Origin: a virus
Strand: one strand, 5' to 3'
DNA: 64,000 nt
Virus record (IMG/VR): IMGVR_UViG_3300034684_000059
Location: 1 to 64,000 of that record
Shown: positions 16,719 through 60,835 of the stretch, piece after piece
Position numbering within the stretch: position 1 is the stretch's first letter
Layout: each line of letters opens with the position of its first letter
Translations under genes and position numbers: made by a program
The notes under the pieces: model-generated
What the model saw: the letters and a program-made list of their open reading frames with translations, nothing else
Database searches by the model: none
What the model was told of the DNA's origin: nothing

Positions 16719-16726
16719 TATATTAC
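16719..16726 (+). promoter_or_regulatory. TATATTAC early-type promoter
   Basis: GATATATTACTATTTGG lies 57 bp upstream of ATG 16784, right after a terminator. The octamer is shared with nine other intergenic sites in this window. Confidence 0.7.
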
Positions 16727-16783
16727 TATTTGGATACTGGGTTATAGTTTTATTGATGTAATTTTTAATTTTGAGGGAACACA

Positions 16784-18412
16784 ATGCTACAGTTCGTTGA
16801 AGTAGAAAATTTTAGTTCTCAATCTCCATACGTCAATGTGGTCCATTCTGGGTTTGATTTGGTCTTTGATAACATAGACATTAAAGACCATCCTGAATTT
16901 CTCAAATTCAGTTTAAAACCATACAGTGCATTGACTAGTACTTTGAAGACTGGTCCTGGAGTTGCGCTTCATCCGATAAATCAGTTCGCAATGACTCTTC
17001 CTACCTCGATTCAAAAACGAATCGTAGAAATGCTTGTGGAATGCCATGTTGCTATTATAAATGGTCCAGAATACGATGACGAACAAGTTGAAAGTTATTC
17101 GGATTTTCTAGCCCAGTTAGAAAAACTGGAAGACACTCTTGGTGATATCATCCTCAAGATGGAAAAAGATACAGATCTTTCTGTCCTCTTAGAAGAGTAT
17201 GTTCGATCCGAAGACTCTCAGATTCCTATCGCAGATATGGCAGATGCAGGTACACGACCTCACGATAGTCCCGAAATGACTTTCTTGAAAGAGGAAGCAG
17301 TTATACTCACAACGGTTTCATTGTATATGAAACTTCTGTCTTTGGTTATGGGGACATTCTTGGCTAAGTATAGTAGTGTGATAGATTCTGAGCAAAGAGA
17401 ATTTCATGCAAGAGCTATCACCAACGCTTTACTTGGCGCAAAGTATCGTCAGATCATGCTCAAGCTCTATGACTACATTGAGAGATTGATCGAAACTAGA
17501 TGCAAATTAACAAAAACGATAACTCCTACTAGTGCATATTGTGGACAAAGTACTGCAAGCTTATCTCGCAGGGAGTTCGATGTTGCTATAGTTAAACGAT
17601 TAGTCGGAGCAGATCTTTACAGATCCGAAGGAAACATCATCAAGTATTTGGCAGCATCTGGTAAAAGTGGTGCTGAGTCAAAACTAAAAAATGCTGAAAA
17701 TACGCATGGAACTAAAATCATGTCTGATCCTAACGATAAAGATCAGTCTGATGAAGGTAATGCCAGTGCGTTCGAAATGGGCTCAAGACAATCGTCCAAA
17801 ACAGCGGATACTCCGCTTATCGTGGAGTGTGGTGCTGAAAGTTTGATCGTCGAACAGCTTGAAACAGAACATATTTCAAACGAAGAATTTGAAATGGTTT
17901 TAGCGTATTATGAAAGAAATCCTCTCCGAATCAATCCTTTTGGAAAATATCTTCTTGGACTCTCTTTCGGACACACACTTGGAGGAGGAACTTATATCCA
18001 ACTTCTGAACCTTCCCATAATAACAAAACTGACAACTATACTACAGATAACTTACGCTCGAGCCGGTATATCTCAACTTGCACACATCATGTCTGCCAAT
18101 ATGGGAACTCCTGGAACACGTGTTCCTAAAGATACGGACATCATCTTAAACTCAGGATGGCAGAATCTTCCAGAATATATCGAGTGTCGTAAGACTTTAG
18201 TTTCCGGATTTGGAGAATATGAATGGAACTCTGTGTTTCGTAGTTTTGTGGAATGTTGTCTGACAACCCCTATCTATTACAACACAGCTCCAGCTATATG
18301 GGATCTGCTGAATGAACGCCCCACAAATGGACAGGAAATCAAAGAATTCCTTCCATTATTGGCTAAAGTTATCAAGTTCTCGACTCATACGTATTTAAAT
18401 AGTGAGGTCTGA
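16784..18412 (+). CDS. Unknown 542-residue protein, first gene of early-type operon
   Basis: ATG at 16784 with TTGAGGGAACACA upstream. The protein is largely helical, with an acidic disordered linker (about residues 300-345, rich in Ser, Asp, Glu) between two folded halves. No known motif is recognised. Size (about 60 kDa) and a position a few genes ahead of the RNAP beta C and beta' C genes recall the phage-specific fifth subunit of the phiKZ non-virion RNAP. I have no sequence evidence for that and mention it only as a candidate. Preceded by a TATATTAC promoter. Confidence 0.75.
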   Translation: MLQFVEVENFSSQSPYVNVVHSGFDLVFDNIDIKDHPEFLKFSLKPYSALTSTLKTGPGVALHPINQFAMTLPTSIQKRIVEMLVECHVAIINGPEYDDEQVESYSDFLAQLEKLEDTLGDIILKMEKDTDLSVLLEEYVRSEDSQIPIADMADAGTRPHDSPEMTFLKEEAVILTTVSLYMKLLSLVMGTFLAKYSSVIDSEQREFHARAITNALLGAKYRQIMLKLYDYIERLIETRCKLTKTITPTSAYCGQSTASLSRREFDVAIVKRLVGADLYRSEGNIIKYLAASGKSGAESKLKNAENTHGTKIMSDPNDKDQSDEGNASAFEMGSRQSSKTADTPLIVECGAESLIVEQLETEHISNEEFEMVLAYYERNPLRINPFGKYLLGLSFGHTLGGGTYIQLLNLPIITKLTTILQITYARAGISQLAHIMSANMGTPGTRVPKDTDIILNSGWQNLPEYIECRKTLVSGFGEYEWNSVFRSFVECCLTTPIYYNTAPAIWDLLNERPTNGQEIKEFLPLLAKVIKFSTHTYLNSEV

Positions 18413-18413
18413 T

Positions 18414-19634
18414 GTGTTTGATGTAGTAGAAGTAGATCTTCCCTTAGTGGAGTATGAACTAGATACTACTACGATATATGTTCCAAATTGCTCTGCATGG
18501 AACTCAGATGAAATATACTGCGCACGCGGTGGAAGATTGTCTTTGGATTGTCATCTGTCGAAATGTATAGTAACAACTCAATTCAAAGATAGTATCTTCG
18601 AATATACTCTACTAGCAAAAGCTCACCCTGAGAAAAACACGCGCATCATGTTCCCTATTTGTTCCAAACTGATCCCTCCTAGTTCTTCAGGGGAGGATGT
18701 CTCAGTGTATTTGCATCTTAAAGGAATACATGAGTTCCATTGGGAATGCAACAAAGAACAACCGCACGTTCCACAATTTATAGGGGAAACGCTGTGGAAG
18801 TTAGAGATGGATGCGCTTATAGATCAATACCCTGCAATAAGTACACGCTCACAAGAACATTGTCTGGATCTTACGTATTGTCCAGAACATGAAAATCTTG
18901 AAACTTTCATAACTCTAGCCAGAGATGAGTTCGTCCATGAATTAAACTTTCACCGAGTAGCTCGAGATCCTTGGGAAGAGTATTGTTCTTTGGACTCATT
19001 GAAAAAGCATCTGTATCCCCAAAAAGATAAAGAGTTACTTTTAAGTGTGATGTTCAGCACCATGGAAGAATTTCCAAGTTTAGACATCAACTATCTTCTC
19101 TTCATTTTACGACAAGCCGGGGATGGAGCTGTACGATATCAAAAAGCACAGATAGAAAGTCCTCATTTGACTTCAGACATCGAAACTCAAGACTATCGAG
19201 AGATAACTAATCTTTATTATCTGCTCAGTAGATCAAGATATAACGATATCAAATTGGAGTACGAGATATATTCGGACAACATCCGATTGACTCACAGCAA
19301 TATCTACAATGAGTACTTTCGTACCAATTCCGTAGAAAGTATGCGCTTGCGATCAGATATAGAAAGTATTATTTTACATCCAGATTTTCTTATGGATCTA
19401 GAGAATAGTACCATAGATCTTGCGCTTAGTAACTACGGAGAAACTCGAGCAGCCAATATCTTGGTTGAAGCTAACTCGAATTCTGAATTAATAGGAGAGT
19501 TATGTTTTGATTATCAGTATGGATTTTTAATTGTATCTCTTACGTTGTACCTTCGAAACGGAAAAACTACTACTCTTTCGATCGTAAGAGATATGCAAGT
19601 ATTGTCGACCATTTCTCAAACTTTAAAGTTCTAG
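18414..19634 (+). CDS. Unknown 406-residue protein
   Basis: I choose GTG 18414 (then TTTGATGTAGTAG) because the GTGAGG six bases before it is a plausible Shine-Dalgarno. An in-frame GTG at 18402 would overlap it and has no site of its own. The previous gene's TGA lies at 18410-18412, so the two are coupled. The protein is beta-rich in its N-terminal third, then helical with many Tyr and Arg. No family is recognised. It is the second gene of a run of structural-looking genes that ends at 22349. Confidence 0.7.
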   Translation: MFDVVEVDLPLVEYELDTTTIYVPNCSAWNSDEIYCARGGRLSLDCHLSKCIVTTQFKDSIFEYTLLAKAHPEKNTRIMFPICSKLIPPSSSGEDVSVYLHLKGIHEFHWECNKEQPHVPQFIGETLWKLEMDALIDQYPAISTRSQEHCLDLTYCPEHENLETFITLARDEFVHELNFHRVARDPWEEYCSLDSLKKHLYPQKDKELLLSVMFSTMEEFPSLDINYLLFILRQAGDGAVRYQKAQIESPHLTSDIETQDYREITNLYYLLSRSRYNDIKLEYEIYSDNIRLTHSNIYNEYFRTNSVESMRLRSDIESIILHPDFLMDLENSTIDLALSNYGETRAANILVEANSNSELIGELCFDYQYGFLIVSLTLYLRNGKTTTLSIVRDMQVLSTISQTLKF

Positions 19635-22458: not shown

Positions 22459-23574
22459 ATGTCTACAACCATACAAGAATATACAGGGATAGTTCTTGAA
22501 GACAAACCTAGAGATTCCAGAATAATAAAAGTTCTCATACCTGAACTTACTCCGTTTTATCAAGGTACGACTCAACCTATAGTGGAGAAAAAACTTGTAA
22601 AGTCAGGCAGTGACGATACTCTTCCCCCGATATCAGAGATCCATGTCTCTAATTATTTTACGGCTACATTTTTTGGAGATACCAATCGAAGATATCCTCC
22701 AGATGTTAGACGATCAGAACAGGTAAGAATATATAAAATCAAAGATCAAGATGTTCTTTTTTGGGAGTCATATGGCCGAGACGACAAACTAAGAACTACA
22801 GAGAGGTTACATATCGGTATAGCTGCTAAACCAGACATCGATTCTGAGCTTACGACAGACAATACGTATTTTCTGGAATTTGACAGTTTTAAAAAACATG
22901 TAGTATTGAAGACCTCTACTGCCAACGGAGAATCGTGTAAGTATTTGTTGAAAATGGATGTCGATAAAGGAGAACTCTATCTTTGTGACGATGTCAACAA
23001 TGAAGTGTACATAAATTCGCATGCTCCAAGAATTCGTATAAAAAACAAATCCGGCACGTTACTTGATCTTCATAAAGAAAATCTATTGGCATCCGCATTA
23101 AAAGACTGCGTTATTAAAGCTGGAAGACAGCTTGTGATAGACTCTCCTGCGATGACATTTTCGAATTCAAACAAGTCAGGAACCATGGTCTGGAATGCTA
23201 AAGATGTGACGATGAATCTGAAGAAATCTTGGGTGTGCAATTCTCCTGCGATAGGTCTAAATGGAGCAGTCGTTACTGACACTGTAGTTGCTAAACACGT
23301 TCAGGCAGAAGGATTTTCTACTGGGATGCAAGGGGGGAACTACTCTTCATCAAATATAGATTTGAAAACAGGAGAAGGGAATAACCCATCAAATCCTCCC
23401 AACGCTGGAGGGAACAGTAGTTCCAATAGACACTGTACTGCCTGGGAAGAATTCAGCGAAGCATTACGTATAGTGCACCATTGTTTGAGTATCAAGAATC
23501 CGGATTGTCCAGAACTTGATTCCTTGTTAGACCTTGCCAACAAAGCAAAAATGCCACTCAATCGAGGTAAATGA
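22459..23574 (+). CDS. Central tail-spike-like (gp5/VgrG-type) protein
   Basis: 371 residues, ATG behind AAGGAGGATACAG. Residues about 1-110 are beta-rich and compatible with an OB-like domain. Residues about 130-290 are a long series of short beta strands with repeated pattern (VYINSHAPRIRIKNKSG, then LVIDSPAMTFSNSN, then VTMNLKKSWVCNSPAIGLNG), which is the look of the triple-stranded beta-helix of phage central spikes (T4 gp5 C-terminal domain, VgrG, gpV). A Gly/Ser/Asn-rich linker and a small helical domain end the protein. The spike pierces the outer membrane at the start of injection. No lysozyme domain is visible. The next gene overlaps its stop. Confidence 0.7.
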   Translation: MSTTIQEYTGIVLEDKPRDSRIIKVLIPELTPFYQGTTQPIVEKKLVKSGSDDTLPPISEIHVSNYFTATFFGDTNRRYPPDVRRSEQVRIYKIKDQDVLFWESYGRDDKLRTTERLHIGIAAKPDIDSELTTDNTYFLEFDSFKKHVVLKTSTANGESCKYLLKMDVDKGELYLCDDVNNEVYINSHAPRIRIKNKSGTLLDLHKENLLASALKDCVIKAGRQLVIDSPAMTFSNSNKSGTMVWNAKDVTMNLKKSWVCNSPAIGLNGAVVTDTVVAKHVQAEGFSTGMQGGNYSSSNIDLKTGEGNNPSNPPNAGGNSSSNRHCTAWEEFSEALRIVHHCLSIKNPDCPELDSLLDLANKAKMPLNRGK

Positions 23575-24245: not shown

Positions 24246-24575
24246 TTACTTTAATGATTCCATCGTGCGATATGTCTGATAGTGTTCTAAAATGTCGTCG
24301 TGATTAGGAATTAAAAGCTGAGACATATTTTTAAATTCCAGTTCAGAAGAATATCCATTCAAAAGTAAAAATATATCGAGCATATCCAAAGGATATCTGC
24401 GATCTCTTAGTACATCGCACGGTCGATATTCATACATGTGTGCTTCTTCTAATGTTAAAGAAATAACTTTTGCAGATTTGCGCAAATGTTCTATATGATC
24501 AGTAACGTATCTTCTCCAATTTCCTGTCAATCTAAGGTGTTCCATAGAACCCTGTGTGAGAACAAGTAAACTCAT
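24246..24575 (-). CDS. Unknown 109-residue protein
   Basis: Start at ATG 24575 (MSLLVLTQGSMEHL) because GTAGGAGCAATT precedes it; an earlier in-frame ATG at 24593 has no site. It is a lone minus-strand gene, divergent from the RNAP beta C gene and convergent with 23571. The composition (Leu, His, Arg, acidic patches) shows no family. A regulator would fit the position, but there is no sequence evidence. Confidence 0.65.
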   Translation of the reverse strand: MSLLVLTQGSMEHLRLTGNWRRYVTDHIEHLRKSAKVISLTLEEAHMYEYRPCDVLRDRRYPLDMLDIFLLLNGYSSELEFKNMSQLLIPNHDDILEHYQTYRTMESLK

Positions 24576-24607: not shown

Positions 24608-24615
24608 TATATTAC
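24608..24615 (+). promoter_or_regulatory. TATATTAC early-type promoter of RNAP genes
   Basis: GTATATATTACTATTGTGTAA lies 45 bp upstream of the RNAP beta C start. The same extended sequence TATATTACTATTGTGTA recurs at 59337. Confidence 0.75.
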
Positions 24616-24660: not shown

Positions 24661-26823
24661 ATGAGTCACGAAGATGATCTTTCTCCCAACCCATACCTGG
24701 AAAGAGACAAAAAGAAATATCCGATGATGTCGAATCTGAACTTCGATGTCAGATTACTTGGAACAAAACCAGTATTGTGTCCCATGTTACCGTCGAATTC
24801 ATCTCAGCGTATGGCTATGTTCTCGCATAACATCAGTGGAGCACCCATACCACATCATCCGGAATTTCCTGCAGTAGCATCTGGGTTTGAACATAAGTTC
24901 ATGGAGTACACGTTCAATACATCCAGATTCGTTGCAGACGGTACGATCCTAGCTATTGTTAGTAAGTATCAAGTAGGACAAGGTCTTTATCCTATCACGT
25001 TCAATCCGATGAATTACGTGATATACTTAAACCATGAAGATCAGACCGTAGATTACGTCACAACAGAACAATACACTCGTTGTACTAACGGATTCGGTTA
25101 TAAAAACATCATCGATGAAAGATTGCTTCGTCCAGGTACCCGTGTCGAAGCAGGACAAACACTCACGCATTCTCCCGCAGTCCAAGGTGAAAAATATTGT
25201 CTTGGAACTAATCTTAATGTTGCCTATATGTCGTCCATATACACAACGGAAGACGCCATGGGGATGTCTCGCAGTACCGCCAAACGACTTGGTACTACTG
25301 GGGTAAAAATGATACCCATCGACATCCAACGCAACTACGTACCTTTGAACTTATACGGAACTCCCGAAGAGTATAAGTTCATACCCGATATGTATGGACA
25401 GGTACGTGAAGATGGGATTTTGTGTGGGTTCCGTGAAGTTGATCCTAATACTTTGTTTTTGGACATGAACCCAGAAAGTCTTATGTCTCCGCAGTATCAC
25501 ACGGATTACTTGTACTATGCTCCTCCAGGAGCTACGATCGTAGACATAGACATGTACAAAAATCCTATCAGCAAAGTAAAGACTCCTGAACATATCTTTG
25601 CTCAGGTAGATGCGTATATCCAAAATTCCCTCATTGGATATAAACAGCTCATGAAAGTCTATTATGAACATTGTGTACAAAAAGGACATCGTCCAAGTTC
25701 TGCATTCAATACGCTGATCACAAATACAGAAATGATCCTTCATGCTAATGGCGTAAGATCTAAAAATCTAAAATCGATCCCAAAATATGCATACAAAGGA
25801 GAAGCGATCAATTTCATCCGTATGAATCTGACATACACACACACTATTGAAGTAAATTGCGGAGCTAAAACAACAGATCGTCAAGGTGCCAAAGGCGTTA
25901 GTAGTATCATTATAGATGATGAGCATATGCCGGTTAACGAATATGGTGTTAGAGCAGACATAGTCATTTGTCCGATGACTCCGACTAACCGAATGAATTT
26001 CGGACAGTTGTATGAACAATTCATAGGAATATTACAATACGCAGTTATACGAGAGTGTAAACAATACTACAAAACCGACCCTTTAAGAGCTTACGATAAG
26101 ATCCTAGAATTCTTTTATGACGTTAACACAGAGTATGGTAAACTTTGTGAACAAGCACATAGAACTGATAAATCTAAGATCTCGTTGGTAGATGAACTTA
26201 TAGGGTTAGGATATCTTCCAGTAGTTTGTCCTCCTGGGTTATCAAATATTGGTCCGGACTGGGTGCTCGAAATGCGTGACAAATATAATGCATTTCCTAC
26301 TCCTGTGTCATATAACCAAACAGACGCGGAAGGCAATGTCATAAGAAGAGTAACTACAATTCGACCGATATACATAGGACCGGTTTACAGATACATCCTG
26401 TGCAAGAACCCACATGTACGGGCCAGTGGTATGTCGTATGTGAACCAGATGAGCGTACCTATAACCATAAAGCGAACAGATGTCAAACACCAACATCCTA
26501 TCGGCATAGTCCCCATACGTATCGGAGAAGATGAAGTCAGAAACCTTATCATGACGGTAGGTCCTATGGCATATCGTATCATCTCACTATATGCCAATGC
26601 TCCTGCAGCAACCAGGATCATGGGAAGACAGTTGTTGACGGCGAAAAAGCCTTCCAATATCAAATGGATCAATGTTTCAGAACAAGAACTCAATTCCATG
26701 AACGTCATGACTCAGGTGACAAAACATATGTTGGCTACCTGCGGAATAGATGCAGAAAATGTTGTAGTTGATAAAGAAAGCATGAAGAAATGGTTGGCGT
26801 TACGTCGTGCCTCTAGAAAATAA
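24661..26823 (+). CDS. RNA polymerase beta subunit, C-terminal half
   Basis: 720 residues, ATG behind TTGGAGGAACATA. Residues 400-412 (CGAKTTDRQGAKG) correspond to the bacterial beta region around GRHGNKG, which binds the nascent RNA and nucleotides. CPMTPTNRMNFGQLYE at 437-452 matches the bacterial NPLGVPSRMNIGQILE. A conserved-looking M-x2-GPMAYR and a basic C-terminus follow. The N-terminal half of beta is not in the window. It is followed nine bases later by the beta' C-terminal half, the same gene pair order as in phiKZ (gp71-73 and gp74, as I recall), which supports assignment to the non-virion polymerase. A TATATTAC promoter upstream would place its expression early. Confidence 0.93.
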   Translation: MSHEDDLSPNPYLERDKKKYPMMSNLNFDVRLLGTKPVLCPMLPSNSSQRMAMFSHNISGAPIPHHPEFPAVASGFEHKFMEYTFNTSRFVADGTILAIVSKYQVGQGLYPITFNPMNYVIYLNHEDQTVDYVTTEQYTRCTNGFGYKNIIDERLLRPGTRVEAGQTLTHSPAVQGEKYCLGTNLNVAYMSSIYTTEDAMGMSRSTAKRLGTTGVKMIPIDIQRNYVPLNLYGTPEEYKFIPDMYGQVREDGILCGFREVDPNTLFLDMNPESLMSPQYHTDYLYYAPPGATIVDIDMYKNPISKVKTPEHIFAQVDAYIQNSLIGYKQLMKVYYEHCVQKGHRPSSAFNTLITNTEMILHANGVRSKNLKSIPKYAYKGEAINFIRMNLTYTHTIEVNCGAKTTDRQGAKGVSSIIIDDEHMPVNEYGVRADIVICPMTPTNRMNFGQLYEQFIGILQYAVIRECKQYYKTDPLRAYDKILEFFYDVNTEYGKLCEQAHRTDKSKISLVDELIGLGYLPVVCPPGLSNIGPDWVLEMRDKYNAFPTPVSYNQTDAEGNVIRRVTTIRPIYIGPVYRYILCKNPHVRASGMSYVNQMSVPITIKRTDVKHQHPIGIVPIRIGEDEVRNLIMTVGPMAYRIISLYANAPAATRIMGRQLLTAKKPSNIKWINVSEQELNSMNVMTQVTKHMLATCGIDAENVVVDKESMKKWLALRRASRK

Positions 26824-26832: not shown

Positions 26833-28782
26833 GTGTACCTGACACAATCTGATATAAGACCAACGTTCGGACATGAAATCCTAGCCAATAACAGACACCC
26901 CAAAGGTTGGGTAACTGTCAAATTTGATGATGGAGAAAAAGATCTTCCCATACAGCAAGTTATCGTCAATGCCCCTATATGGGGTATCTTGCATGCTATG
27001 GATATGAAAGTCAAAACAAAGCATGTTTTCATAAAGGATACGTACTCTAATGATCTTCTCAAGAAAGCAATGACGAAAATCTTCTTAGAGGTTAAAGATC
27101 GTTGTCCTGAAAGAATACAAGAGTTTGTGACTGCTATCTGGGATTGTGCTAATACCATCAATGAACTTGGTGCATTTGAACTTGCAGAACACCATTGTAC
27201 TATCTCTCTTCCTGATCTTGCAGAGATCATGAATGAACCTGCAATGAAAGCGATCACGGATGTTGATCTGACCAATCGATTCGGAACCAACGTTATTGAA
27301 ATGACTCTCAATGACGTAAGAGGAAAAATGTGCAAGTTGCTTGGAACTAAAGGAGCATTAAAAAATGATACGCTTCTTCATTTTCAGCAAACTAACAACA
27401 TAAATCCGAATCAGATGACTCAAGCTTTAGTTGCGTTCGGTCTTCGTACAGAAGTTAACGACATCGTTATTCCAAGAGCGGTACAAGGATCATCTTTAAC
27501 GATGATGCGCGATATCAGAGATATCGCTATCGAGCCTCATGCTGCACGTAAAGCTGCAGTCATGAACCACGCAGCCATCCAAGAATCACAATACTGGGGA
27601 AGAAAAGATCAGTTGCTCCTAAGCGCGATACTCGGAATCGTCCCCGGGGATTGTGGCGCACACAAAACTATAGAAGTTATCCTTAACAAAACGAATATGT
27701 GGTGCTATGTGGGCAAAAACTACATCGCAGACGATGGGCACATAGCTCACATAAATGTGGACAATATGGAAGCTCTTATAGATATACCCCTCCAGATGAT
27801 CACTGTTGGTGGATGTCGTCACAGACATGGGGTATGTGAAACTTGTTTCGGACAACTCCATCTGACCATACCTAAAACAATGAATTTAGGATTGGTTTCT
27901 GCTACCACGATGGTATCTAAAGTGTCTCAGATGATCTTGTCTACAAAACATCTCATCAAGACGTTGTCCAAGATATACGAACTTCCCCCACATGCAGAAG
28001 AAGTATTCCAGAGAAATATCAAAGGTATCTCACTTCATCCTACGTTCCATAAAGAAATGAAGAACAAAGAGTGGTATCTCGGGATAGATCAACGCGACCT
28101 TTATGGAGGTCGATCTGATCTTATTGAGTTGGATAGAGATCTTCCTATCCCGGAAGACAGATTCTCAAGCATCCATTCCGCGTATATCAAATTCACATCG
28201 GACGATGGTCGGGATATCTTTTACGAACTTCCTTTGGATGTTAATGACGTACGACCGTATCTTGCATCAGAATTCATCTTGACGATGAAAGATAAATATC
28301 AGGATATCGTACAAGAAGATCAACTTTTATGGATACCCATGAAAAATCTTCCTAACATGCCTATATTTAGATCTCTGATCATAAACGACTCTATGTCCGA
28401 ATACGTAGAAAGAGTTAAAGCTTTCCTTGAAAGTAAACCTCTTTCAAAACACAAAACATTCCAAGGTGCAATAGAACATTTCACCGAACTGATTTGGTCT
28501 AAAGTTAACATAAACATTGCACATTTGGAAGTGATATTACGAGCTCACATGATTCATGATGAAAACGATTGGTCGATACCGACAAATCCGGATCTGAACA
28601 ATGTGACGTTTGCTCCTACAGGAAGAATACTTCAGAGAAGAACTCTGTCTGAGATGATGTCGTTCGAAGGACACAATGCGCATTTTATGCGGCCACAAAC
28701 GTACGTTATACCTTCGACTAGAGGACCTTTCGATCCATTCTACGATTTTGATCGCCATTGGATACGTGGCAAACTGGGCTAA
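26833..28782 (+). CDS. RNA polymerase beta' subunit, C-terminal half
   Basis: 649 residues from GTG 26833 with TAAGGAGATATC upstream. It holds a trigger-loop/bridge-helix-like stretch (HAARKAAVMNHAAIQESQYW near residues 236-255), then the beta' C-terminal zinc site with C328, C335 and C338 (C-x6-C-x2-C) and probably C276, and right after it NLGLVSATTMVSKVSQM, the counterpart of bacterial GEAVGVIAAQSIGEPGTQ. It completes the beta' subunit begun by the gene at 10592. It forms an operon with beta C, ending at a terminator at 28790. Confidence 0.92.
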   Translation: MYLTQSDIRPTFGHEILANNRHPKGWVTVKFDDGEKDLPIQQVIVNAPIWGILHAMDMKVKTKHVFIKDTYSNDLLKKAMTKIFLEVKDRCPERIQEFVTAIWDCANTINELGAFELAEHHCTISLPDLAEIMNEPAMKAITDVDLTNRFGTNVIEMTLNDVRGKMCKLLGTKGALKNDTLLHFQQTNNINPNQMTQALVAFGLRTEVNDIVIPRAVQGSSLTMMRDIRDIAIEPHAARKAAVMNHAAIQESQYWGRKDQLLLSAILGIVPGDCGAHKTIEVILNKTNMWCYVGKNYIADDGHIAHINVDNMEALIDIPLQMITVGGCRHRHGVCETCFGQLHLTIPKTMNLGLVSATTMVSKVSQMILSTKHLIKTLSKIYELPPHAEEVFQRNIKGISLHPTFHKEMKNKEWYLGIDQRDLYGGRSDLIELDRDLPIPEDRFSSIHSAYIKFTSDDGRDIFYELPLDVNDVRPYLASEFILTMKDKYQDIVQEDQLLWIPMKNLPNMPIFRSLIINDSMSEYVERVKAFLESKPLSKHKTFQGAIEHFTELIWSKVNINIAHLEVILRAHMIHDENDWSIPTNPDLNNVTFAPTGRILQRRTLSEMMSFEGHNAHFMRPQTYVIPSTRGPFDPFYDFDRHWIRGKLG

Positions 28783-34137: not shown

Positions 34138-34145
34138 TATATTAC
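34138..34145 (+). promoter_or_regulatory. TATATTAC early-type promoter
   Basis: GGCTATATTACTCCTTTGAATAC lies 55 bp upstream of ATG 34201. Confidence 0.7.
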
Positions 34146-34200: not shown

Positions 34201-34512
34201 ATGCGAATTTCTCACGCTATTTCTAATTTGTTGTGCCCTACGGTTAATGATATCTGTTCCAGAATAATCAAAAGGACAGACCGTAGGTCAGAAATATGTG
34301 GGCATATCCACAGAACCGAAAAAGACACACTGATTCTGAAGGTAGAGGCAGAAGGACGTCAATCCATTACTGAAATAACGGATGCAGATCTGGCCCGCAT
34401 CCGTCAAAACTTAAGCCACACTCGCATACAGACTCATGGTGTATGGGTGAAGGTAACTAACGTAGTTTCTGAACCTACTGCATTGGAATTCAATATGTCA
34501 GTGTCTTGGTAA
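34201..34512 (+). CDS. Small unknown early-type protein
   Basis: 103 residues, ATG preceded by AAAGGAGCATATC. The protein is basic, with several Arg-Ile patterns in its N-terminal half and a beta-rich end. No family is recognised. The TATATTAC promoter puts it among the presumptive early genes, whose products in jumbo phages often target host functions. It is followed 15 bases later by 34528. Confidence 0.7.
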   Translation: MRISHAISNLLCPTVNDICSRIIKRTDRRSEICGHIHRTEKDTLILKVEAEGRQSITEITDADLARIRQNLSHTRIQTHGVWVKVTNVVSEPTALEFNMSVSW

Positions 34513-34752: not shown

Positions 34753-34836
34753 GACATTCATTCAAACTATAGAAATATATTATTTTTTTGCAGAAGAGAT
34801 TAAGTGATTATCTTCTGTAGTCTTAAGGAGGCTCGT

Positions 34837-35223
34837 ATGAATTTTAAATCCCTAGTAGCATCTACACAAACAAAAGTGTCTCAGGAAAAAGGTCTTTCTG
34901 TTTTACTTAGTCATCTGCATACTCAGTATACAGAGGTTAAGAAAACTATGAATTATAGACCTCAAATTGTCTTGTTTTTAATACGCCCCAAAGAGAGACA
35001 TAACCCGACGAGAATAGATATCGTCGATAAATGTTCTCGAGAAGTGTATGCTTCGATTGATGTGTCTTACGACACAAGGTTAAAAGAAATCTATGACACC
35101 ATAATGCTACAGAATTTGAAAGAATTCAAACACATTCCCATGTACATCAAGTTGATAACCAAAGGTTATCCTACGTTAATCAGCAGCACCGATGTAGTGA
35201 ATCGGAAAGGTTCGGTAGTATGA
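34837..35223 (+). CDS. Unknown 128-residue protein
   Basis: Start at ATG 34837 (MNFKSLVAST), as TTAAGGAGGCTCGT precedes it; the upstream GTG at 34804 has no site. The spacer contains TATATTAT at 34771, a one-base variant of the early-type promoter. The protein has a mixed alpha/beta composition with no known motif. Confidence 0.7.
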   Translation: MNFKSLVASTQTKVSQEKGLSVLLSHLHTQYTEVKKTMNYRPQIVLFLIRPKERHNPTRIDIVDKCSREVYASIDVSYDTRLKEIYDTIMLQNLKEFKHIPMYIKLITKGYPTLISSTDVVNRKGSVV

Positions 35224-35399: not shown

Positions 35400-38030
35400 A
35401 TGTCTATTATTTTCCCTACTGTTGTACGTAAACGTGACAACCTTACATTTGCTTCTTATAACAAACTGAAGATCATTCATGCCGTAGAAAAAGCGTTTCG
35501 TTCATACAACGAAACGGTTTCAAACGAACAGTTGGAAGAAATTTATTCTGGTGTAGTGGATCATATCACTAAAAATCCCAACATGTTGTCTTATAGATTG
35601 GACACCGGAGAATACTACATAGATGTCGAAACCATCCAGAACTTTGTAGAAAAATCTCTCATGGAGAAAGGATGGTATTCAATAGCTAAGAATTATATCT
35701 TGTACAGGAATCAGCGTGCGACTGTACGTGCCTTAGATAGTGCAGCCATCTTGGACGAAATCGATGGATATATCGGAGGGCATGATCCGGACGAAAAAGA
35801 AAACTCCAATATCGATTTTTCTCTTCAAGGACTCAACAACAACATTGTAGCTAAAATCATGCGGCAGTATTGGCTGGAACGAGTGATGACTCCGGAAGCA
35901 AAACAGATGCACATAAATGGAGAAGTCCATTTCCACGACCTTAATTTGCTTTCTGTGTATTGTTGCGGTTGGGATATGCGTGCACTTATTCTGGAAGGAC
36001 TTGGTGGAGTCCCAGGAGCAGTATCGTCAAGACCTCCTAAAGAATTTGGAGTAGCTCTTGGACAGGTATGGAATTTTCTGTACACCGTCCAGGGAGAAGC
36101 TGCTGGAGCACAATCCTTAAGTCAATTTGATCTTTATCTTGCACCTTTCATTCGATACAATAACCTCACGTATCGTCAAGTTAAAAAGTCTCTTGTAAAA
36201 TTTGCACACAACATGAATACCAAAACAAGGGTAGGTTTCCAGACACCGTTCACCAACGTGTCCTTGTGTTTGACCGTACCCAAATCTATGGCTGACGATC
36301 ATGTCATCTATGGTGGTAAGTTCATGGAAGACAAATATGGGGATTTCCAAAAAGAGATGGATATCTTTAACCAAGCATTTTGCGAAGTCATGCTTGAAGG
36401 TGACGCCGATGGACGTCAATTCCATTTCCCCATTCCTACGTACAACATTACTAAAGACTTCGATTGGGATAATCCCAATTACACCAAGCTCTGGGAATTG
36501 TCTGGGAAATACGGTTCTCCGTACTTCACGAACTATATCAATTCTGAACTTGATCCTGACGACGTACGCTCCATGTGCCCTATGCGATACGATACAAAGA
36601 TCACAACGTACTATCGCGGACACAAATCAACGATGACTTTAGAAGATCTTTATCGGACATATTCTGGTAAATCCATAACCGATACTTCAGTAACTTATCT
36701 TGGTAAACACATACCGGTGAAACGTGTACTGAGAGAACCCACTGAAGAACTTATCCGTATAACGACAAAACGTCAGTCTGAAGGACACGTATTTGATAGA
36801 AGACACATGCAACCTATCACTAGGGAAAACAAACCTCTCACTGTACGAGCATGTGATATCCAGATTGGAGATCTTCTTCCGTACGAACAGAAAGGAAATA
36901 TCGATTGGATAGCTGTCACTGATATCTCTCGAGTAGATAAAACTATACGAGACTCTTACGTATATTGCATAGAAGTCGATAGTGAAGATCACCTGTTTGA
37001 ACTGACAGAAGGAGATCTTATCACGCACAATTGTAGATTGCGTCTTGATTTTACTGAACTTAAGAATCGTGGTGGTGGTCTCTTTGGAGCTAACTCCATG
37101 ACTGGATCTATAGGTGTAGCCACCCTTAACTTACCGGATGCAGCTATAGAAGCAAACGGTGATAAAGACAAACTCTTCGAGATCCTCACAAGACGTATGG
37201 ACATCGCTGCACAGTTCCTCGACGATAGAAGAACTTTCATAGAGAGCAGTATCGAAAAAGGACTGTATCCTTTTAGTCGAAGATGGTTGCAGGGCATCAA
37301 AGACAAAACAGCTAACGATCCGGACATAAAACGTCCTGGATATTACGCTGCGTATTTTAGCACTATAGGTATCATCGGTGGTCATGAAATGTGCCTTAAC
37401 TTCTTAGGTAAAGGCATAGAAACTGAAGAAGGTGCAAAGTTAGCTTTGGAAGTTCAGGAGTTCATCAAATCAAGATTAGATCATTATCGTGAGAAATATC
37501 ACACTCCCTTCAATCTGGAAGCAACTCCTGCAGAAGGTGTGTGCTATCGTCTTGCTAAATGTCTGAAGACTAAATTCCCTACTGCAAAAATGGTAGAAGA
37601 ATTACGAGAACACGATGAACCTTATCTTACTAACTCGACTGCACTTCCTGTAGGATTTACCAATGATCTGTATACAGCAATAACCCACCAATCTAAATTG
37701 CAGGTTATGTATACAGGAGGAACGGTATTTCACATTTTCCTTGGAGAAGCCATATCCAATCCTGAAGCTGTGAAAGAAGTGGTTAGGATGGTGTGTACCA
37801 CGACGCCTATTCCTTACATCACACTTTCTCCCGAATATTCTATCTGCAGAAGTCACGGATATCTTGCAGGGGAACAACCCGAATGTCCCACTTGTCACAG
37901 TGACACCGAGGTGTATGCACGAGTAGTAGGTTTCTACACTCCTATGAACCGGTGGAACAAAGGAAAGCGTACTGAAGGAACTCATCGTAAGAGTTTCGAC
38001 GGAATCGTCGATGTCCTTAAAATCGAATAA
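35400..38030 (+). CDS. nrdD: Anaerobic (class III) ribonucleotide reductase with an intein
   Basis: 876-residue precursor. An N-terminal ATP-cone (VVRKRDNLTFASYNKLKI) is followed by the class III core. Residues 393-544 are an intein, leaving a mature enzyme of 724 residues in which SM is joined to CRLRLD. The C-terminus has the glycyl-radical site RVVGFY (G844 of the precursor) followed by WNKGKR. A metal site just before it has C-x2-H and C-x2-C, where relatives usually have two C-x2-C pairs. The enzyme makes deoxynucleotides without oxygen, using a glycyl radical generated by NrdG (encoded at 49695). Mature NrdD relatives usually have MCCRL at the splice point; here splicing would leave a single Cys. 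The gene is its own unit, ending at 38048. Confidence 0.95.
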   Translation: MSIIFPTVVRKRDNLTFASYNKLKIIHAVEKAFRSYNETVSNEQLEEIYSGVVDHITKNPNMLSYRLDTGEYYIDVETIQNFVEKSLMEKGWYSIAKNYILYRNQRATVRALDSAAILDEIDGYIGGHDPDEKENSNIDFSLQGLNNNIVAKIMRQYWLERVMTPEAKQMHINGEVHFHDLNLLSVYCCGWDMRALILEGLGGVPGAVSSRPPKEFGVALGQVWNFLYTVQGEAAGAQSLSQFDLYLAPFIRYNNLTYRQVKKSLVKFAHNMNTKTRVGFQTPFTNVSLCLTVPKSMADDHVIYGGKFMEDKYGDFQKEMDIFNQAFCEVMLEGDADGRQFHFPIPTYNITKDFDWDNPNYTKLWELSGKYGSPYFTNYINSELDPDDVRSMCPMRYDTKITTYYRGHKSTMTLEDLYRTYSGKSITDTSVTYLGKHIPVKRVLREPTEELIRITTKRQSEGHVFDRRHMQPITRENKPLTVRACDIQIGDLLPYEQKGNIDWIAVTDISRVDKTIRDSYVYCIEVDSEDHLFELTEGDLITHNCRLRLDFTELKNRGGGLFGANSMTGSIGVATLNLPDAAIEANGDKDKLFEILTRRMDIAAQFLDDRRTFIESSIEKGLYPFSRRWLQGIKDKTANDPDIKRPGYYAAYFSTIGIIGGHEMCLNFLGKGIETEEGAKLALEVQEFIKSRLDHYREKYHTPFNLEATPAEGVCYRLAKCLKTKFPTAKMVEELREHDEPYLTNSTALPVGFTNDLYTAITHQSKLQVMYTGGTVFHIFLGEAISNPEAVKEVVRMVCTTTPIPYITLSPEYSICRSHGYLAGEQPECPTCHSDTEVYARVVGFYTPMNRWNKGKRTEGTHRKSFDGIVDVLKIE
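36576..37031 (+). other. Mini-intein within NrdD
   Basis: The 152-residue insertion starts at Cys393 (CPMRYDTKI, block A), and ends with VYCIEVDSEDHLFEL and LITHN followed by Cys545 (blocks F and G), so the splicing residues C1, penultimate His, terminal Asn and Cys+1 are all present. The extein sequence on both sides (RSM and CRLRLD) rejoins into the normal NrdD active-site region. At this length there is no room for a homing endonuclease. Block B is unusual: the RRH around position 467 lacks the usual T-x2-H. Confidence 0.88.
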
Positions 38031-38105: not shown

Positions 38106-38113
38106 TATATTAC
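38106..38113 (+). promoter_or_regulatory. TATATTAC early-type promoter
   Basis: TTTGAAGGTTATATTACTATC lies 59 bp upstream of ATG 38173. Confidence 0.7.
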
Positions 38114-38662: not shown

Positions 38663-38670
38663 TATATTAC
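38663..38670 (+). promoter_or_regulatory. TATATTAC early-type promoter
   Basis: TTTTAAGGATATATTACTTATTTGAATG. The next well-placed start (38766) is 95 bp downstream. Confidence 0.7.
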
Positions 38671-42414: not shown

Positions 42415-43500
42415 TTATATATTATTGGTTTGGATGAGATGTATACTGCCGTTACCACCATTACCACCTGCGGCATTCGGAAGATACTTAGGGTCCACAT
42501 CAAGAGAATCTCCACCTATACCACCCTGTACCAGTATTTTTGCAGGAGTATTAATATCGCCCTTGTGGAATATATGGATCGCACCGCCACCAGAACCTCC
42601 GCCACCTGCATTGTGTCCGGCACCACCATGAGCGCCATTGGCAGTTATTTTTCCGTTAGGACCGAAAATTATATTACCGTGTACTACGATTATAAGTAGA
42701 CCCCCGGCACCACTATACCCGGTTTGTGCAGCATAATTGGAAGGAGCTAATCTATGTCCAATACCACCAGGATTACCGGCTCCTCCTCCAACTGCACGTC
42801 GTTTAGTGTTCACATCTGTCGTAGCACATCTACCATCTCCGCCAAGTCCACCATCTGGTTGACCGGATCCTGCGGCCACTGTACGACCAGACGCTGCTGC
42901 ACCTCCACCTCCAGCTCCGCCAGAGAACGACGTACCTGCAGACCCAGCACCACTTGTACTAGTTCCACTCATCTGCTGAGCACAACCGCCACTACCACCA
43001 CCACCACACGCGCCGTTTATACCTGAACCACCAGTATATCCAACCAAACCATATGCTGTATCACTTCCACTACCTATGCTTCTTTTAGAGGCACCAGCTC
43101 CTCCTGTCGGCTGTATTACTGCGAGTCCTAGTGCAGTGAAAATATCTTCCGAATTTATGAATACCCCACGACGTGGATCTATACCTACGAATTTACCCGG
43201 AGCATTGGCTCCTCGTGCAGTCATGGATAGTTCACCACGAACAATAAGATCTCCAAGGATACGAAGGTACATTCCTTTACATCTATTCGTTGGACGAACT
43301 ACATGTCCTTCGTTGATGGTGAAGTTGTTATACGTTCTAACTACAGGATCACCATCAACTTCACTGACGAACTCATCATGATCAGATAACCCTGTAGACA
43401 CAAAATCCTGCGCAGACGATATCGGAAAATAAAATGCTTGTTCTACCGGAAAATTATAATCTTTAGTAGTCTGAGCATTTATAGAATCGATCACTAACAT
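42415..43500 (-). CDS. Gly-rich tail-fibre adhesin (paralog of 54395)
   Basis: 361 residues. Residues about 35-100 form a conserved head shared almost word for word with the protein at 54395 (DHDEF-SEVDGDPVVRTYNN, then INEGH-VRPTNRCKG). The rest, from about 130, is dominated by Gly runs (GGAGGGG, GGGSGG) with beta strands such as GLLIIVVHGNIIFGP between them. Poly-Gly folds of this kind form the receptor-binding tips of some phage fibres (T4-like gp38 adhesins). I infer a host-recognition adhesin with a common mounting domain and variable tip. It is a lone minus-strand gene; ribosome binding site CTTAAGGAGAG. Confidence 0.85.
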   Translation of the reverse strand: MLVIDSINAQTTKDYNFPVEQAFYFPISSAQDFVSTGLSDHDEFVSEVDGDPVVRTYNNFTINEGHVVRPTNRCKGMYLRILGDLIVRGELSMTARGANAPGKFVGIDPRRGVFINSEDIFTALGLAVIQPTGGAGASKRSIGSGSDTAYGLVGYTGGSGINGACGGGGSGGCAQQMSGTSTSGAGSAGTSFSGGAGGGGAAASGRTVAAGSGQPDGGLGGDGRCATTDVNTKRRAVGGGAGNPGGIGHRLAPSNYAAQTGYSGAGGLLIIVVHGNIIFGPNGKITANGAHGGAGHNAGGGGSGGGAIHIFHKGDINTPAKILVQGGIGGDSLDVDPKYLPNAAGGNGGNGSIHLIQTNNI

Positions 43501-43619: not shown

Positions 43620-43667
43620 TTTAGTATAGTTTAAAAATACGATATATGATTTGAAATAATACTTCAG

Positions 43668-43703
43668 TATTTATTTTTTACATACACTATATTTTATGTA
43701 GAA
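43668..43703. repeat. 37-bp element, copy 2 (first copy at 7456)
   Basis: TATTTATTTTTTACAT, CACTATAT and TTATGTAGAA are in the same order and nearly the same spacing as at 7456-7492. Both copies are non-coding. Confidence 0.6.
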
Positions 43704-43832
43704 TACTTTGAGTAGGAACTAGGAATTAGGAACACCCAATACCTTAGTCTCTAGCAACAATCCGAGAACGAGATCTAGCTCGAACGAAGTGAGAGATAGA
43801 GCCGTCGCGGTTGGTGCGCTCCGTCTAGTCTT

Positions 43833-43907
43833 GGGGGGAAAGGGGGGTTAAAGGAAGGGGGTGAGGAGAGATTGTTAAGAGAACCTAGGGGGAAACCAAT
43901 TGGGGGG
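43833..43907 (+). other. Cluster of five G-runs (G-quadruplex candidate)
   Basis: GGGGGG at 43833, GGGGGG at 43842, GGGGG at 43857, GGGGG at 43888 and GGGGGG at 43902 fall within 75 bases. Runs of five or six G are rare elsewhere in this AT-rich window. At least four runs are close enough for an intramolecular G-quadruplex. Confidence 0.7.
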
Positions 43908-43945
43908 AATTTTCATGTTAGTACATACCGATCACATATATCAAA

Positions 43946-44008: not shown

Positions 44009-44016
44009 TATATTAC
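44009..44016 (+). promoter_or_regulatory. TATATTAC early-type promoter (first of two)
   Basis: AACTATATTACAACATAGG, 92 bp upstream of ATG 44109. Confidence 0.6.
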
Positions 44017-44046: not shown

Positions 44047-44054
44047 TATATTAC
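44047..44054 (+). promoter_or_regulatory. TATATTAC early-type promoter (second of two)
   Basis: GGATATATTACTTAATCG, 54 bp upstream of ATG 44109. This spacing matches the other sites best. Confidence 0.7.
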
Positions 44055-44108: not shown

Positions 44109-44324
44109 ATGTTAAAACGTATATCGTCAAAAACTCCCCATCCAGCCAAACGTAGTACTAGAAATGTAATCGTACCTATTTCTACTTCTCCGAGTAGGTT
44201 TGAGTTAGGACCAAAATACAACTCGTGTGGACTATTTGACAAATCAGAAACGGATACTTTCCGTGAATGTATGTTCTCTGGTAAAATTGGTAGAGTTCTA
44301 TTAGGACATGCTGAACATAACTAA
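44109..44324 (+). CDS. Small basic unknown protein, first of early cassette
   Basis: 71 residues from ATG 44109 (MLKRISSKTP), with AGGAGA eight bases upstream; an earlier in-frame TTG lies before that site. The N-terminal 25 residues are very basic (KR, RSTRN). No family is recognised. It heads a cassette of six small genes behind doubled TATATTAC promoters. Confidence 0.65.
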   Translation: MLKRISSKTPHPAKRSTRNVIVPISTSPSRFELGPKYNSCGLFDKSETDTFRECMFSGKIGRVLLGHAEHN

Positions 44325-48671: not shown

Positions 48672-48679
48672 TATATTAC
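48672..48679 (+). promoter_or_regulatory. TATATTAC early-type promoter
   Basis: AACTATATTACAAATTTGAGTG, 36 bp upstream of ATG 48716. Confidence 0.7.
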
Positions 48680-48715: not shown

Positions 48716-49576
48716 ATGACCATACTTATCGGAGATCTAGTTGAGTGGAGGATCACCACATTAGAAGAAATTATTTGGCTAATGGTTGATCGTGAAAGAA
48801 AGTATACTGCGATATTGTACAGAACAGACAACCCAGAATATTATTTATTATATCTTATCGATATGTCTGGATTGATTGTAGAAAGTTTTCCTGTACATGA
48901 ATTTACAAAAATAAAAATAACTAAGCTGTGGAAAGATGCACTTGTCTATCCGCGATGTAAAATAATCAAACAAAATGCTCATGGAGTAGAAATAGTGTAT
49001 TCTTTTAGAAGAACACCTGAAAATGATGTCCTTTTTGAAATAACTGTAGCTGGAAAGATCTTCAGAGTGATCCTGGACGAAGCTCGTTCATTGCATTCTG
49101 AACCTATATACGCAAGTCCTCCCAACCTTTCTTACTTATTAGAAGCTCTTCTAAAATCTAACGTTACGATTCTTACACAGATCCCTAAGGTATTTGATCT
49201 ACCTTCCTCCGAAGTAGAAGTAGAGGTCTACGATATCTTTTACGAATTTGTCATGGAAACAAATCCTGCGGCATTCTTTTTGTGGGATATAGAAACAGAT
49301 CTATTCCGGCATCTTCAGTATCCTGGGAATAATGACCATCTGTTTTGGGTAGAGTTTGAAGAAGTGGTCAATGCACTCAGTCGATCTCAAATGTCCGGGT
49401 ATTTATTGGTCGCACTTACACCGTATGCGTTGTGTCCAGTATGGTCTATCACGTACCCCTACGATATCTCATCTCGCAATAACCATCTCAGGGAAGATAT
49501 GTATGAACAGATCAAATTGTGCGGAGATCTAATTGCTCAAGGATTTGGTGTATCTACGGGGTTAATTGCTAAATGA
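48716..49576 (+). CDS. Unknown 286-residue early-type protein
   Basis: ATG preceded by AAGGAACCGCT. It is rich in Ile, Leu, Glu and Tyr, with many alternating strands and a helical C-terminal half. No family is recognised. A single-gene TATATTAC unit that ends at 49582. Confidence 0.78.
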   Translation: MTILIGDLVEWRITTLEEIIWLMVDRERKYTAILYRTDNPEYYLLYLIDMSGLIVESFPVHEFTKIKITKLWKDALVYPRCKIIKQNAHGVEIVYSFRRTPENDVLFEITVAGKIFRVILDEARSLHSEPIYASPPNLSYLLEALLKSNVTILTQIPKVFDLPSSEVEVEVYDIFYEFVMETNPAAFFLWDIETDLFRHLQYPGNNDHLFWVEFEEVVNALSRSQMSGYLLVALTPYALCPVWSITYPYDISSRNNHLREDMYEQIKLCGDLIAQGFGVSTGLIAK

Positions 49577-49694: not shown

Positions 49695-50426
49695 ATGTAC
49701 ATCGTACCTAATTTTATTACCTCTACTCTGGATTATCCTGGAGGACATCTTTCTACAACAGTATTCACTAAAGGATGTAATCTAAGGTGTGGGTATTGTC
49801 ACAATGCAGAACTGATCAACAAAAACCCAGAAGAGTGTTTATCTTCTGAAGAATTTATTGATCTGATCAAAGAAAGAAGATCATCTATCCCTCACATTAC
49901 TGTATCTGGTGGGGAACCCACTATACACGAAGATCTTCCTGAAGTTTTACGACAACTTAAAACACTGGGATTTAAAGTAAAACTTGATACCAATGGCTCA
50001 CATCCGGAAATGCTCAAACAGATCATTTCGGAAAACTTAGTTACATATGTAGCTATGGATCTAAAAACAAGTTTAGCAAAATACATCGGTATGGAGTTTG
50101 GATGGGAAGAAGATTCGTTTCCAGAAGATATTTTAACTGAATCTGCCAGAGCTCTTAGTCTGTCTGGAATTTCACACGAATATCGTACAACCTTCTTCGA
50201 AAACTATCTTGGATTAGCAGATATCAAAAATATCCAAAAGATACTTCTTCAAAATTATCCGTCCACACAGCACCCTGTTGTGAAATACTTTGTACAGTGG
50301 GGGTTGTGGCCTCATCAACGAAAGACTCCATCGAAGTATAAAGTTCGTCTGAGTAAAAGTTATCGGCCAGATATCGTTGAGTTATTTTCGTCTTGTAAGG
50401 ATGTCATCTCTCTGGATTTCCGATAG
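49695..50426 (+). CDS. nrdG: Anaerobic ribonucleotide reductase-activating protein (radical SAM)
   Basis: 243 residues, ATG behind ATAGGAGGTCAGT. The radical-SAM cluster site is C28-x3-C32-x2-C35 in TKGCNLRCGYCHNAE. SGGEPT near residue 75 is the SAM-binding GGE motif, and the N-terminus (IVPNFITSTLDYPGG) is typical of NrdG2-type activases. The enzyme uses an iron-sulfur cluster and S-adenosylmethionine to put the glycyl radical on NrdD (35400). The two genes are 12 kb apart, not in one operon as usual. Downstream comes the endolysin. Confidence 0.9.
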   Translation: MYIVPNFITSTLDYPGGHLSTTVFTKGCNLRCGYCHNAELINKNPEECLSSEEFIDLIKERRSSIPHITVSGGEPTIHEDLPEVLRQLKTLGFKVKLDTNGSHPEMLKQIISENLVTYVAMDLKTSLAKYIGMEFGWEEDSFPEDILTESARALSLSGISHEYRTTFFENYLGLADIKNIQKILLQNYPSTQHPVVKYFVQWGLWPHQRKTPSKYKVRLSKSYRPDIVELFSSCKDVISLDFR

Positions 50427-59336: not shown

Positions 59337-59344
59337 TATATTAC
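59337..59344 (+). promoter_or_regulatory. TATATTAC early-type promoter
   Basis: TTTTGAAGGATATATTACTATTGTGTA is the fullest form of the element, 41 bp upstream of ATG 59386. The same TTTGAAGGATATATTACT stands at 60819. Confidence 0.75.
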
Positions 59345-59385: not shown

Positions 59386-60729
59386 ATGTCTGAAGTACAA
59401 AATACTATCGTAGCTACAGATGACAATATCGTGTACATCGTTAGCTCCGAGATCAAACGGTTGGGAGACCGTGCTGATCTTAATCACATAGATGTCAGTA
59501 ACATTACTGACATGTCGTGTCTGTTTAATACGTCTTCATTCAATGGAGACATATCCAAGTGGAATGTATCAAACGTTAAGGATATGTCTTGGATGTTCTC
59601 AGAATCTGAGTTCAATGGAGACATATCTGACTGGAATGTATCTGGTGTAGTAAACATGCACGGCATGTTCTCACATTCTAAGTTCGATCAGGATATATCG
59701 AACTGGGATGTGTCTCATGTTGAAGATATGTCTTATATGTTCGATGAGTCTCAGTTCAATCAAGACATATCGTCTTGGGACGTATCGAACGTTACTGAGA
59801 TGAATAACATGTTCGAACGTTCTGTATTCAATGGGGATATCGCATCCTGGGATGTCAGTAACGTTAAGAACATGCGTACAATGTTCACATACTCACGATT
59901 CAACAGAGATATCTCCCGGTGGGATGTGAGTAATGTGGTATTCATGTCTTGGATGTTTGCATCTTCAGTATTCGACGGGGATATATCTGGATGGGATGTA
60001 TCCAACGTCAGAGATATGTCTCACATGTTCGAACGTTCTAAGTTCAATCGGGACATATCTAAATGGAATGTGTCTAACGTTAAATACATGCAACACATGT
60101 TCTCAGAATCAATATTCAACCAAGACATATCTTCTTGGAATATTGGTCGAGTAAAAGATATGTCTGGCATGTTCGAACGTTCGATATTCGATCAGGACAT
60201 ATCCCGATGGGATGTGTCGCACGTTACAAATATGTTTGGAATGTTCTCACACTCTAAGTTCAAAGGGGATCTATCCAAATGGGACGTAAGTGAAGTCGAG
60301 AACATGCGCTGCATGTTCTCAGAATCTGTGTTCAATAGAGACATATCCATGTGGGACGTATCGAACGTTAAAGATATGTTTGGTATGTTCACAAATTCGA
60401 TGTTCAACCAAGACATATCTGACTGGGATGTCTCTAATGTTAAAACAATGAAAGGGATGTTCTCAAAATCCAGGTTTGACCAAGACATATCGACATGGAA
60501 TGTGTCTCAGGTTACAGATATGTCTTGGATGTTCTATAGATCCGTGTTCAACCAGGACATAGCTTTGTGGGACGTGTCTAACGTAACTGGCATGGAATAT
60601 ATGTTCTACCGTGCTAAGTTCAATCAAGACATATCCCGATGGGATGTGTCCGATACGACTGACGTATCCGGCATGTTTGAAGGATCTCCTTTAGAACAAC
60701 ATCCTCCGATGTGGAACAAACAAAAATAG
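59386..60729 (+). CDS. BspA/DUF285-type leucine-rich-like repeat protein
   Basis: 447 residues. Residues 52-435 are sixteen repeats of exactly 24 residues with consensus FNxDISxWDVSNVxxMxxMFxxSx, preceded by a half unit (HIDVSNITDMSCLF) and followed by a 12-residue tail. This is the DUF285/BspA-like (PARCEL) repeat seen in Mycoplasma and gut-bacterial surface proteins, which forms an extended solenoid for protein binding. There is no signal peptide or anchor, so the product stays in the cytoplasm or binds a virion. A TATATTAC promoter makes it an early-type gene, which argues for an intracellular partner rather than a fibre. Confidence 0.9.
   Translation: MSEVQNTIVATDDNIVYIVSSEIKRLGDRADLNHIDVSNITDMSCLFNTSSFNGDISKWNVSNVKDMSWMFSESEFNGDISDWNVSGVVNMHGMFSHSKFDQDISNWDVSHVEDMSYMFDESQFNQDISSWDVSNVTEMNNMFERSVFNGDIASWDVSNVKNMRTMFTYSRFNRDISRWDVSNVVFMSWMFASSVFDGDISGWDVSNVRDMSHMFERSKFNRDISKWNVSNVKYMQHMFSESIFNQDISSWNIGRVKDMSGMFERSIFDQDISRWDVSHVTNMFGMFSHSKFKGDLSKWDVSEVENMRCMFSESVFNRDISMWDVSNVKDMFGMFTNSMFNQDISDWDVSNVKTMKGMFSKSRFDQDISTWNVSQVTDMSWMFYRSVFNQDIALWDVSNVTGMEYMFYRAKFNQDISRWDVSDTTDVSGMFEGSPLEQHPPMWNKQK
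59539..60690 (+). repeat. Sixteen tandem 72-bp units encoding the DUF285 repeats
   Basis: The array is exactly 16 x 72 bp with no insertion or gap. Positions such as GACATATC(C/T), TGGGATGTGTC and ATGTTC recur in nearly every unit, while flanking codons vary. Confidence 0.85.
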
Positions 60730-60747
60730 AAACGTTAGTACGTACGG

Positions 60748-60784
60748 TAAGAGAGTTCCTCCTTGACCGGGAGGAACTCTCTTA
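60748..60784. terminator. Hairpin terminator
   Basis: TAAGAGAGTTCCTCC, 7-base loop, GGAGGAACTCTCTTA, a 15-bp stem after the repeat protein. Confidence 0.85.
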
Positions 60785-60827
60785 TATCAAGATATGTCAT
60801 TCGATTTATTTGAAGGATATATTACTT

Positions 60828-60835
60828 TTTTGAAC
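60828..60835 (+). promoter_or_regulatory. TATATTAC early-type promoter with no gene behind it
   Basis: ATTTGAAGGATATATTACTTTTTTGAAC. The next plus-strand features are a structured 100-base stretch and a terminator, not a gene. Confidence 0.7.

Follow-up and report, generated by a model that had tools for sequence, protein, structure and literature searches.

Predicted phiKZ-type early promoters precede the nvRNAP genes of a highly diverged jumbo phage

Introduction

An octamer, TATATTAC, recurs between the genes of an uncultured phage, and its recurrence raises the question of whether it marks a set of promoters and, if so, which RNA polymerase would read them. A sequence-only reading had identified the octamer as the early-promoter consensus of phiKZ, and the published consensus is indeed TATATTAC (PMC7058600, Table 2). 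In phiKZ, early genes are transcribed by a virion RNA polymerase (vRNAP) (PMC7598289), and the non-virion RNA polymerase (nvRNAP) is a product of early genes (PMC4666361). A 2026 review counted 28 phiKZ early promoters (PMC13282480); as of a 2020 review, no vRNAP had been purified (PMC7598289). The early-promoter switch is already known; what is new here is the very distant phage that owns it.

The window, that is, the whole stretch of DNA analysed, corresponds to bases 1 to 64,000 of an IMG/VR virus record that is 87,468 bases long. A scan with the extended motif described below recovered another record of this phage in IMG/VR, IMGVR_UViG_3300034683_000041 (118,395 bases), which was 100% identical to the source record over the compared overlap of 18,000 bases. 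The second record adds 74,478 bases, giving 161,946 bases (162 kb) of one phage, and coordinates above 87,468 continue the numbering of the window. Since the relatives found measure 203 to 323 kb, the genome is probably not complete in these 162 kb. An IMG/VR search with the RNAP peptides returned no close relatives beyond this second assembly of the same phage. Gene models are simple open reading frame calls combined with ribosome-binding-site scoring and carry no curated annotation.

Results

The window contains 12 copies of TATATTAC, all on the plus strand, 10 of them intergenic and 2 within genes. Dinucleotide shuffles of the window gave an expectation of 3.4 copies on both strands together, and 12 copies were reached in none of 100 shuffles. 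Over 162 kb there are 22 exact copies, 21 on the plus strand and 1 on the minus strand, and TATATTAC is the most frequent intergenic octamer. Intergenic DNA makes up 9.2% of the 162 kb, yet 19 of the 22 copies lie there, all on the plus strand (binomial P = 2.4e-17). The sequence-only reading had listed ten intergenic sites, always on the plus strand; the strand claim held for all 12 window copies, and nine of the ten coordinates were exact, the tenth (given as 60828) being correctly 60818. It had also named equal frequency inside genes as evidence against a promoter family, and when that comparison was run over the 162 kb, the distribution just given left the claim standing. One might suppose that an AT-rich compositional or mobile repeat had gathered between genes by chance, and the intergenic DNA is slightly richer in AT (GC content of 36.8%, versus 39.2%). 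However, intergenic Markov models predict only about 0.8 to 1.0 copies on the plus strand and about 0.7 on the minus strand, against the 19 and 0 observed; a reversed control pattern gave 0 to 1 matches; and the sites hold their position ahead of the orthologues even where the RNAP of the other phage shares only some 25% identity. We regard such a repeat as having next to no likelihood.

When 18 sites were aligned, the octamer proved to be the core of a motif of some 30 bp, ATTTRAMGGA-TATATTAC-TWWTTTGA, that carries information between approximately -13 and +8. Conservation falls on TTTRA (-9 to -5, adjoining the core), on the final C of the core, and on a G six bases on. Of 22 sites, 18 have G and 3 have A at the base that follows the six spacer bases (core +7), and since published starts sit 6 nt downstream of the consensus, this G is the predicted start site. 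Specifically, AR9 early promoters read AAATATATATTAT-(6N)-G+1, and in phiKZ and phiR1-37 transcription starts 6 nt after the consensus (PMC5312081). Flank scores were trained on the first 87 kb and applied to the unseen 74 kb, where the seven sites scored between -7 and +20, compared to a mean of -18 and a 95th percentile of -4.4 for random intergenic DNA; the two weakest, 97594 and 151766, fell just under that percentile. The extended core TTTGAAGGA...TTTG that had been noticed by eye is real, with flanks at all seven held-out copies well above typical random intergenic DNA. The three copies within genes have background flanks. Two of them, at 11389 to 11396 (plus strand, within the nvRNAP N-beta' gene; flank score, -11.5) and at 42670 to 42677 (plus strand, within the minus-strand gene at 42415 to 43500; flank score, -16.5), are on this measure chance occurrences; the third, at 133974, is on the minus strand.

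A weight matrix of the element, which includes the +1 position, found 24 sites in the 162 kb at a cutoff score of at least 12. All 24 were intergenic and on the plus strand; genes and the minus strand had no site at this cutoff, and simulated sequence gave 0.4 sites per strand. The matrix added five degenerate sites, at 8790, 34776, 77569 (plus strand; core, CATATTAC), 81489 (plus strand; core, GATATTAC), and 152595 (plus strand; core, TATATTAT), the first two of which lie in the window and had been overlooked by eye. We consider 44009, 81489, and 83311 to be weak sites. As to placement, the 63 nt upstream of the sites fold at -20.9 kcal/mol, whereas the corresponding value for other gene starts is -13.3 kcal/mol (P = 0.003), in agreement with the earlier observation that the octamer usually follows a terminator, and the distance of 36 to 60 bp to the next start codon that had been given for most sites applies to 7 of the 10.

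These features bear on whether the host sigma-70 RNA polymerase might use the sites as promoters with an unusual -10 box. TATATT does look like a -10 hexamer, and resemblance to TTGACA at 15 to 19 bp is marginally more frequent than random intergenic DNA would give (3.3 versus 3.0 of 6 positions), but the alignment reveals no distinct -35 box, and the layout of TTTRA, core C, and G is not a sigma-70 architecture. Moreover, a scan of the region for sigma-70-like sites showed no enrichment, giving fewer matches than shuffled sequence, and the motif is shared with phages in which rifampicin leaves early transcription unaffected. Use by the host enzyme therefore appears very unlikely. In 257 Gb of bacterial genomes, the extended motif gave 19 single scattered matches, approximately the chance level, and so pointed to no host family.

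The phage codes for both multisubunit polymerases, a phiKZ-type vRNAP and an nvRNAP. The nvRNAP genes encode N-beta' (10592 to 12100, plus strand; catalytic NNDFDGD; phiKZ gp55 homologue), the gp68 homologue or fifth subunit (16784 to 18412, plus strand; phrog_3209, the family of phiKZ gp68), C-beta (24661 to 26823, plus strand; phiKZ gp71-73 homologue), C-beta' (26833 to 28782, plus strand; phiKZ gp74 homologue), and N-beta (132443 to 134044; phrog_2943, the family of phiKZ gp123; 23% identity, E = 5e-15). The vRNAP genes found encode N-beta' (60991 to 62934, minus strand; ADYDGD; phrog_2986; matching "putative vRNAP beta' subunit 1") and a beta protein of 1,508 amino acids (71793 to 76319); other pieces of the vRNAP were not located in the 162 kb. 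The order of the phiKZ gp54-gp75 block, taken as a marker of the nucleus-forming Chimalliviridae, is kept, namely, N-beta', SbcD, gp66, gp67, gp68, C-beta, C-beta', and helicase.

In phiKZ, elements at 45568, 57984, 63063, and 120657 precede gp54-gp55, gp68, gp70.1-gp74, and gp121-gp123, respectively, with TATATTAC lying 72 bp before gp54 and 33 bp before gp68. These four nvRNAP slots are matched here by sites at 8790, 16719, 24608, and 131082, so that all five nvRNAP genes are covered. The predicted promoter at 8790 to 8797 (plus strand; core, TATATCAT; score, 19.1; predicted +1 at 8804) lies 77 bp before the ATG of an orphan gene at 8875 to 10491, which is followed by nvRNAP N-beta'. The one at 16719 to 16726 (plus strand; score, 27.9; predicted +1 G at 16733) precedes the gp68 homologue, and its unit continues into a baseplate-family gene (22459 to 23574), which calls for read-through or for a second promoter that escaped detection. 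The predicted promoter at 24608 to 24615 (plus strand; score, 20.4; predicted +1 G at 24622) lies 45 bp before the ATG of the C-beta/C-beta' operon, and the plus-strand site at 131082 precedes the unit that matches phiKZ gp121-gp123.

The C-beta slot was further compared across 18 related phages by scanning 200 bp of DNA ahead of the C-beta operon with the matrix of this phage, significance being judged against Markov simulations of each region. A significant site (P < 0.05) was present in 14 of the 18, mostly 28 to 46 bp before the start codon; the +1 G in most of these sites is partly selected, since the matrix includes that position. In AR9, Goslar, pir03, and OBP, no significant site was found in the slot, indicating that the arrangement is not universal, and in AR9 an early promoter is instead annotated some 1.1 kb upstream. 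Immediately upstream of the C-beta promoter of our phage is a small minus-strand gene (24246 to 24575; phrog_3455), and a minus-strand gene of similar size occupies the same place in most relatives viewed, which puts the C-beta promoter in a conserved divergent gap.

No early-promoter site was found upstream of the two vRNAP genes, where the best scores were 0.07 (N-beta') and 2.4. This bears on the possibility that the elements are nvRNAP promoters or mixed-use sites serving middle or continuous genes. There is precedent for mixed use in AR9, some genes of which have both early and late promoters (PMC5312081), but the sites described here precede the nvRNAP's own genes, which are needed first, a short TATG element serves the nvRNAP of phiKZ (PMC7598289), and the vRNAP genes have no such sites. 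We give nvRNAP or mixed use only a slim chance.

The product of the orphan gene at 8875 to 10491, a protein of 538 amino acids, occupies the nuclear-shell slot of phiKZ gp54, has a gp54-like promoter, and adjoins nvRNAP N-beta'. The protein had no match in PHROG, PDB, or phage sequences, and neither an alignment search with ChmA nor hhalign revealed similarity to chimallin; its AlphaFold model had a pLDDT of 35. Nothing in the 162 kb matched chimallin (ChmA) in the form of phrog_4795 or a five-sequence profile, but the profile also misses EL and barely reaches OBP, so that a chimallin gene may have gone undetected.

Behind the other sites, mostly uncharacterised genes are found, and the first gene encodes a protein of at most 130 amino acids at 12 of 21 sites, compared to 19% of all genes. 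Predicted plus-strand early promoters at 34138 to 34145 (score, 25.1), 34776 to 34783 (core, TATATTAT; score, 14.9), and 38106 to 38113 (score, 32.1) precede uncharacterised genes at 34201 to 34512 (103 amino acids), 34837 to 35223 (128 amino acids), and 38173 to 38562 (129 amino acids), respectively. Further such promoters at 38663 to 38670 (plus strand; score, 34.2) and 48672 to 48679 (plus strand; score, 27.1) precede genes at 38766 to 39059 (97 amino acids, GTG start) and 48716 to 49576 (286 amino acids, uncharacterised). The predicted promoter at 44047 to 44054 (plus strand; score, 27.9), before an uncharacterised gene at 44109 to 44324 (71 amino acids), has a doubtful copy 38 bp upstream (44009 to 44016, plus strand; score, 12.4), whose flank score of -4.5 lies near the 95th percentile for random intergenic DNA. 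Upstream of this double site, at 43660 to 43930, are some 270 bases with G-rich runs (cttggggggaaaggggggtt) and no obvious gene.

Among the larger or recognizable products, the large subunit of topoisomerase II (122275) and a protein that matches an HTH antitoxin family (76450) lie behind early-promoter sites, and the genes downstream of the site at 128498 include one for a 224-amino-acid protein whose family is labelled RNA polymerase beta. The predicted promoter at 59337 to 59344 (plus strand; score, 28.1) precedes a DUF285 repeat protein gene (59386 to 60729; DUF285 E = 7e-166). A second DUF285-type repeat protein (151814; L045 6263 to 6955) also stands directly behind an early promoter; such proteins are unusual as early products of a phage. 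A tRNA-Leu(taa) gene (L001 12765 to 12851) is located just 3' of the HTH-antitoxin-family gene, between the promoters at 76384 and 76975. Elsewhere, the phage encodes NrdD, an anaerobic ribonucleotide reductase with an ATP cone (35400 to 38030), and a radical-SAM protein (49695 to 50426) that is possibly the NrdD activase; together, these suggest an anaerobic host.

The predicted promoter at 60818 to 60825 (plus strand; score, 34.0; predicted +1 G at 60832), among the strongest of the set, has no open reading frame with a ribosome-binding site downstream of it. A transcript from this site would extend over about 154 nt (60832 to 60985, plus strand) to a strong terminator (stem at approximately 60938 to 60973, then a U run), ending just before the convergent vRNAP N-beta' gene. 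The unit had no Rfam family match and no phage DNA match. A ribozyme or other known RNA was considered and rejected, given the Rfam result and a body that, with the terminator removed, was no more structured than shuffled sequence (z = 0.14). Tentatively, 60818 may drive a noncoding early RNA made by the vRNAP, conceivably a regulator of host or phage. A possible second gene-less unit (L002 1310 to 1555; record 83311 to 83555) has a weak element, TATATTGC, about 240 bases lacking any open reading frame with a ribosome-binding site, and, ahead of a convergent gene, a strong terminator that probably acts in both directions.

Discussion

The closest likeness is to phiKZ, which shares the core, an upstream TTTRAG, the distance to +1, and the four nvRNAP-gene slots; the two differ in the bases before the core, GAT(C/T) in phiKZ and commonly GGA here, and in the uncharacterised nature of the genes behind most other sites of our phage. 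The C-beta promoter has TATATTAC here and TATATCAT in phiKZ, whereas for the shell-slot promoter the reverse is true. The predicted promoter of 201phi2-1, TTAWTAVAA_HYWTTTRARR_BTATATTACDWHDGTG (PMC7058600), matches in register between -9 and the TG at +6/+7 past the core, but its far-upstream TTAWTAVAA is not evident in this phage. OBP, N1M2, and EL promoters (KATATTAT, TACATTAT) have the same architecture, with a TTTCARRY-like stretch before the core, but their cores end in T; here C predominates, and TATATTAT is a minority form. AR9 and phiR1-37 share the AT-rich core, the 6-nt spacer, and G+1, but they have uracil DNA (PMC7598289), and exact TATATTAC occurs at chance level in their records.

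We propose, with a probability of roughly 0.93, that the elements are phiKZ-type early promoters of a highly diverged jumbo phage, read by an injected vRNAP. Recognition by the vRNAP, the start site, and early timing are predicted by analogy with phiKZ, AR9, and phiR1-37. The multisubunit vRNAP would enter with the DNA, recognize the motif of about 30 bp, and initiate at the G six bases after TATATTAC, producing leaders of mostly about 30 to 55 nt with a Shine-Dalgarno site, often 3' of the terminator of the preceding unit. A first wave of transcription would then supply the five nvRNAP subunits from the four conserved promoter slots, together with the topoisomerase II subunit, the two DUF285 proteins, many small uncharacterised proteins, and one apparent noncoding RNA. 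The nvRNAP would subsequently transcribe later genes; the two vRNAP genes found lack such a promoter.

These results suggest that the vRNAP promoter sequence and its placement before all five nvRNAP genes have been kept even though the polymerases are only about 25 to 31% identical. For an uncultured phage, the sites provide a list of putative early genes, in which the small proteins behind this promoter are candidate host-takeover factors. In addition, a motif set as deeply diverged as this one may help to define the bases that a vRNAP must read.
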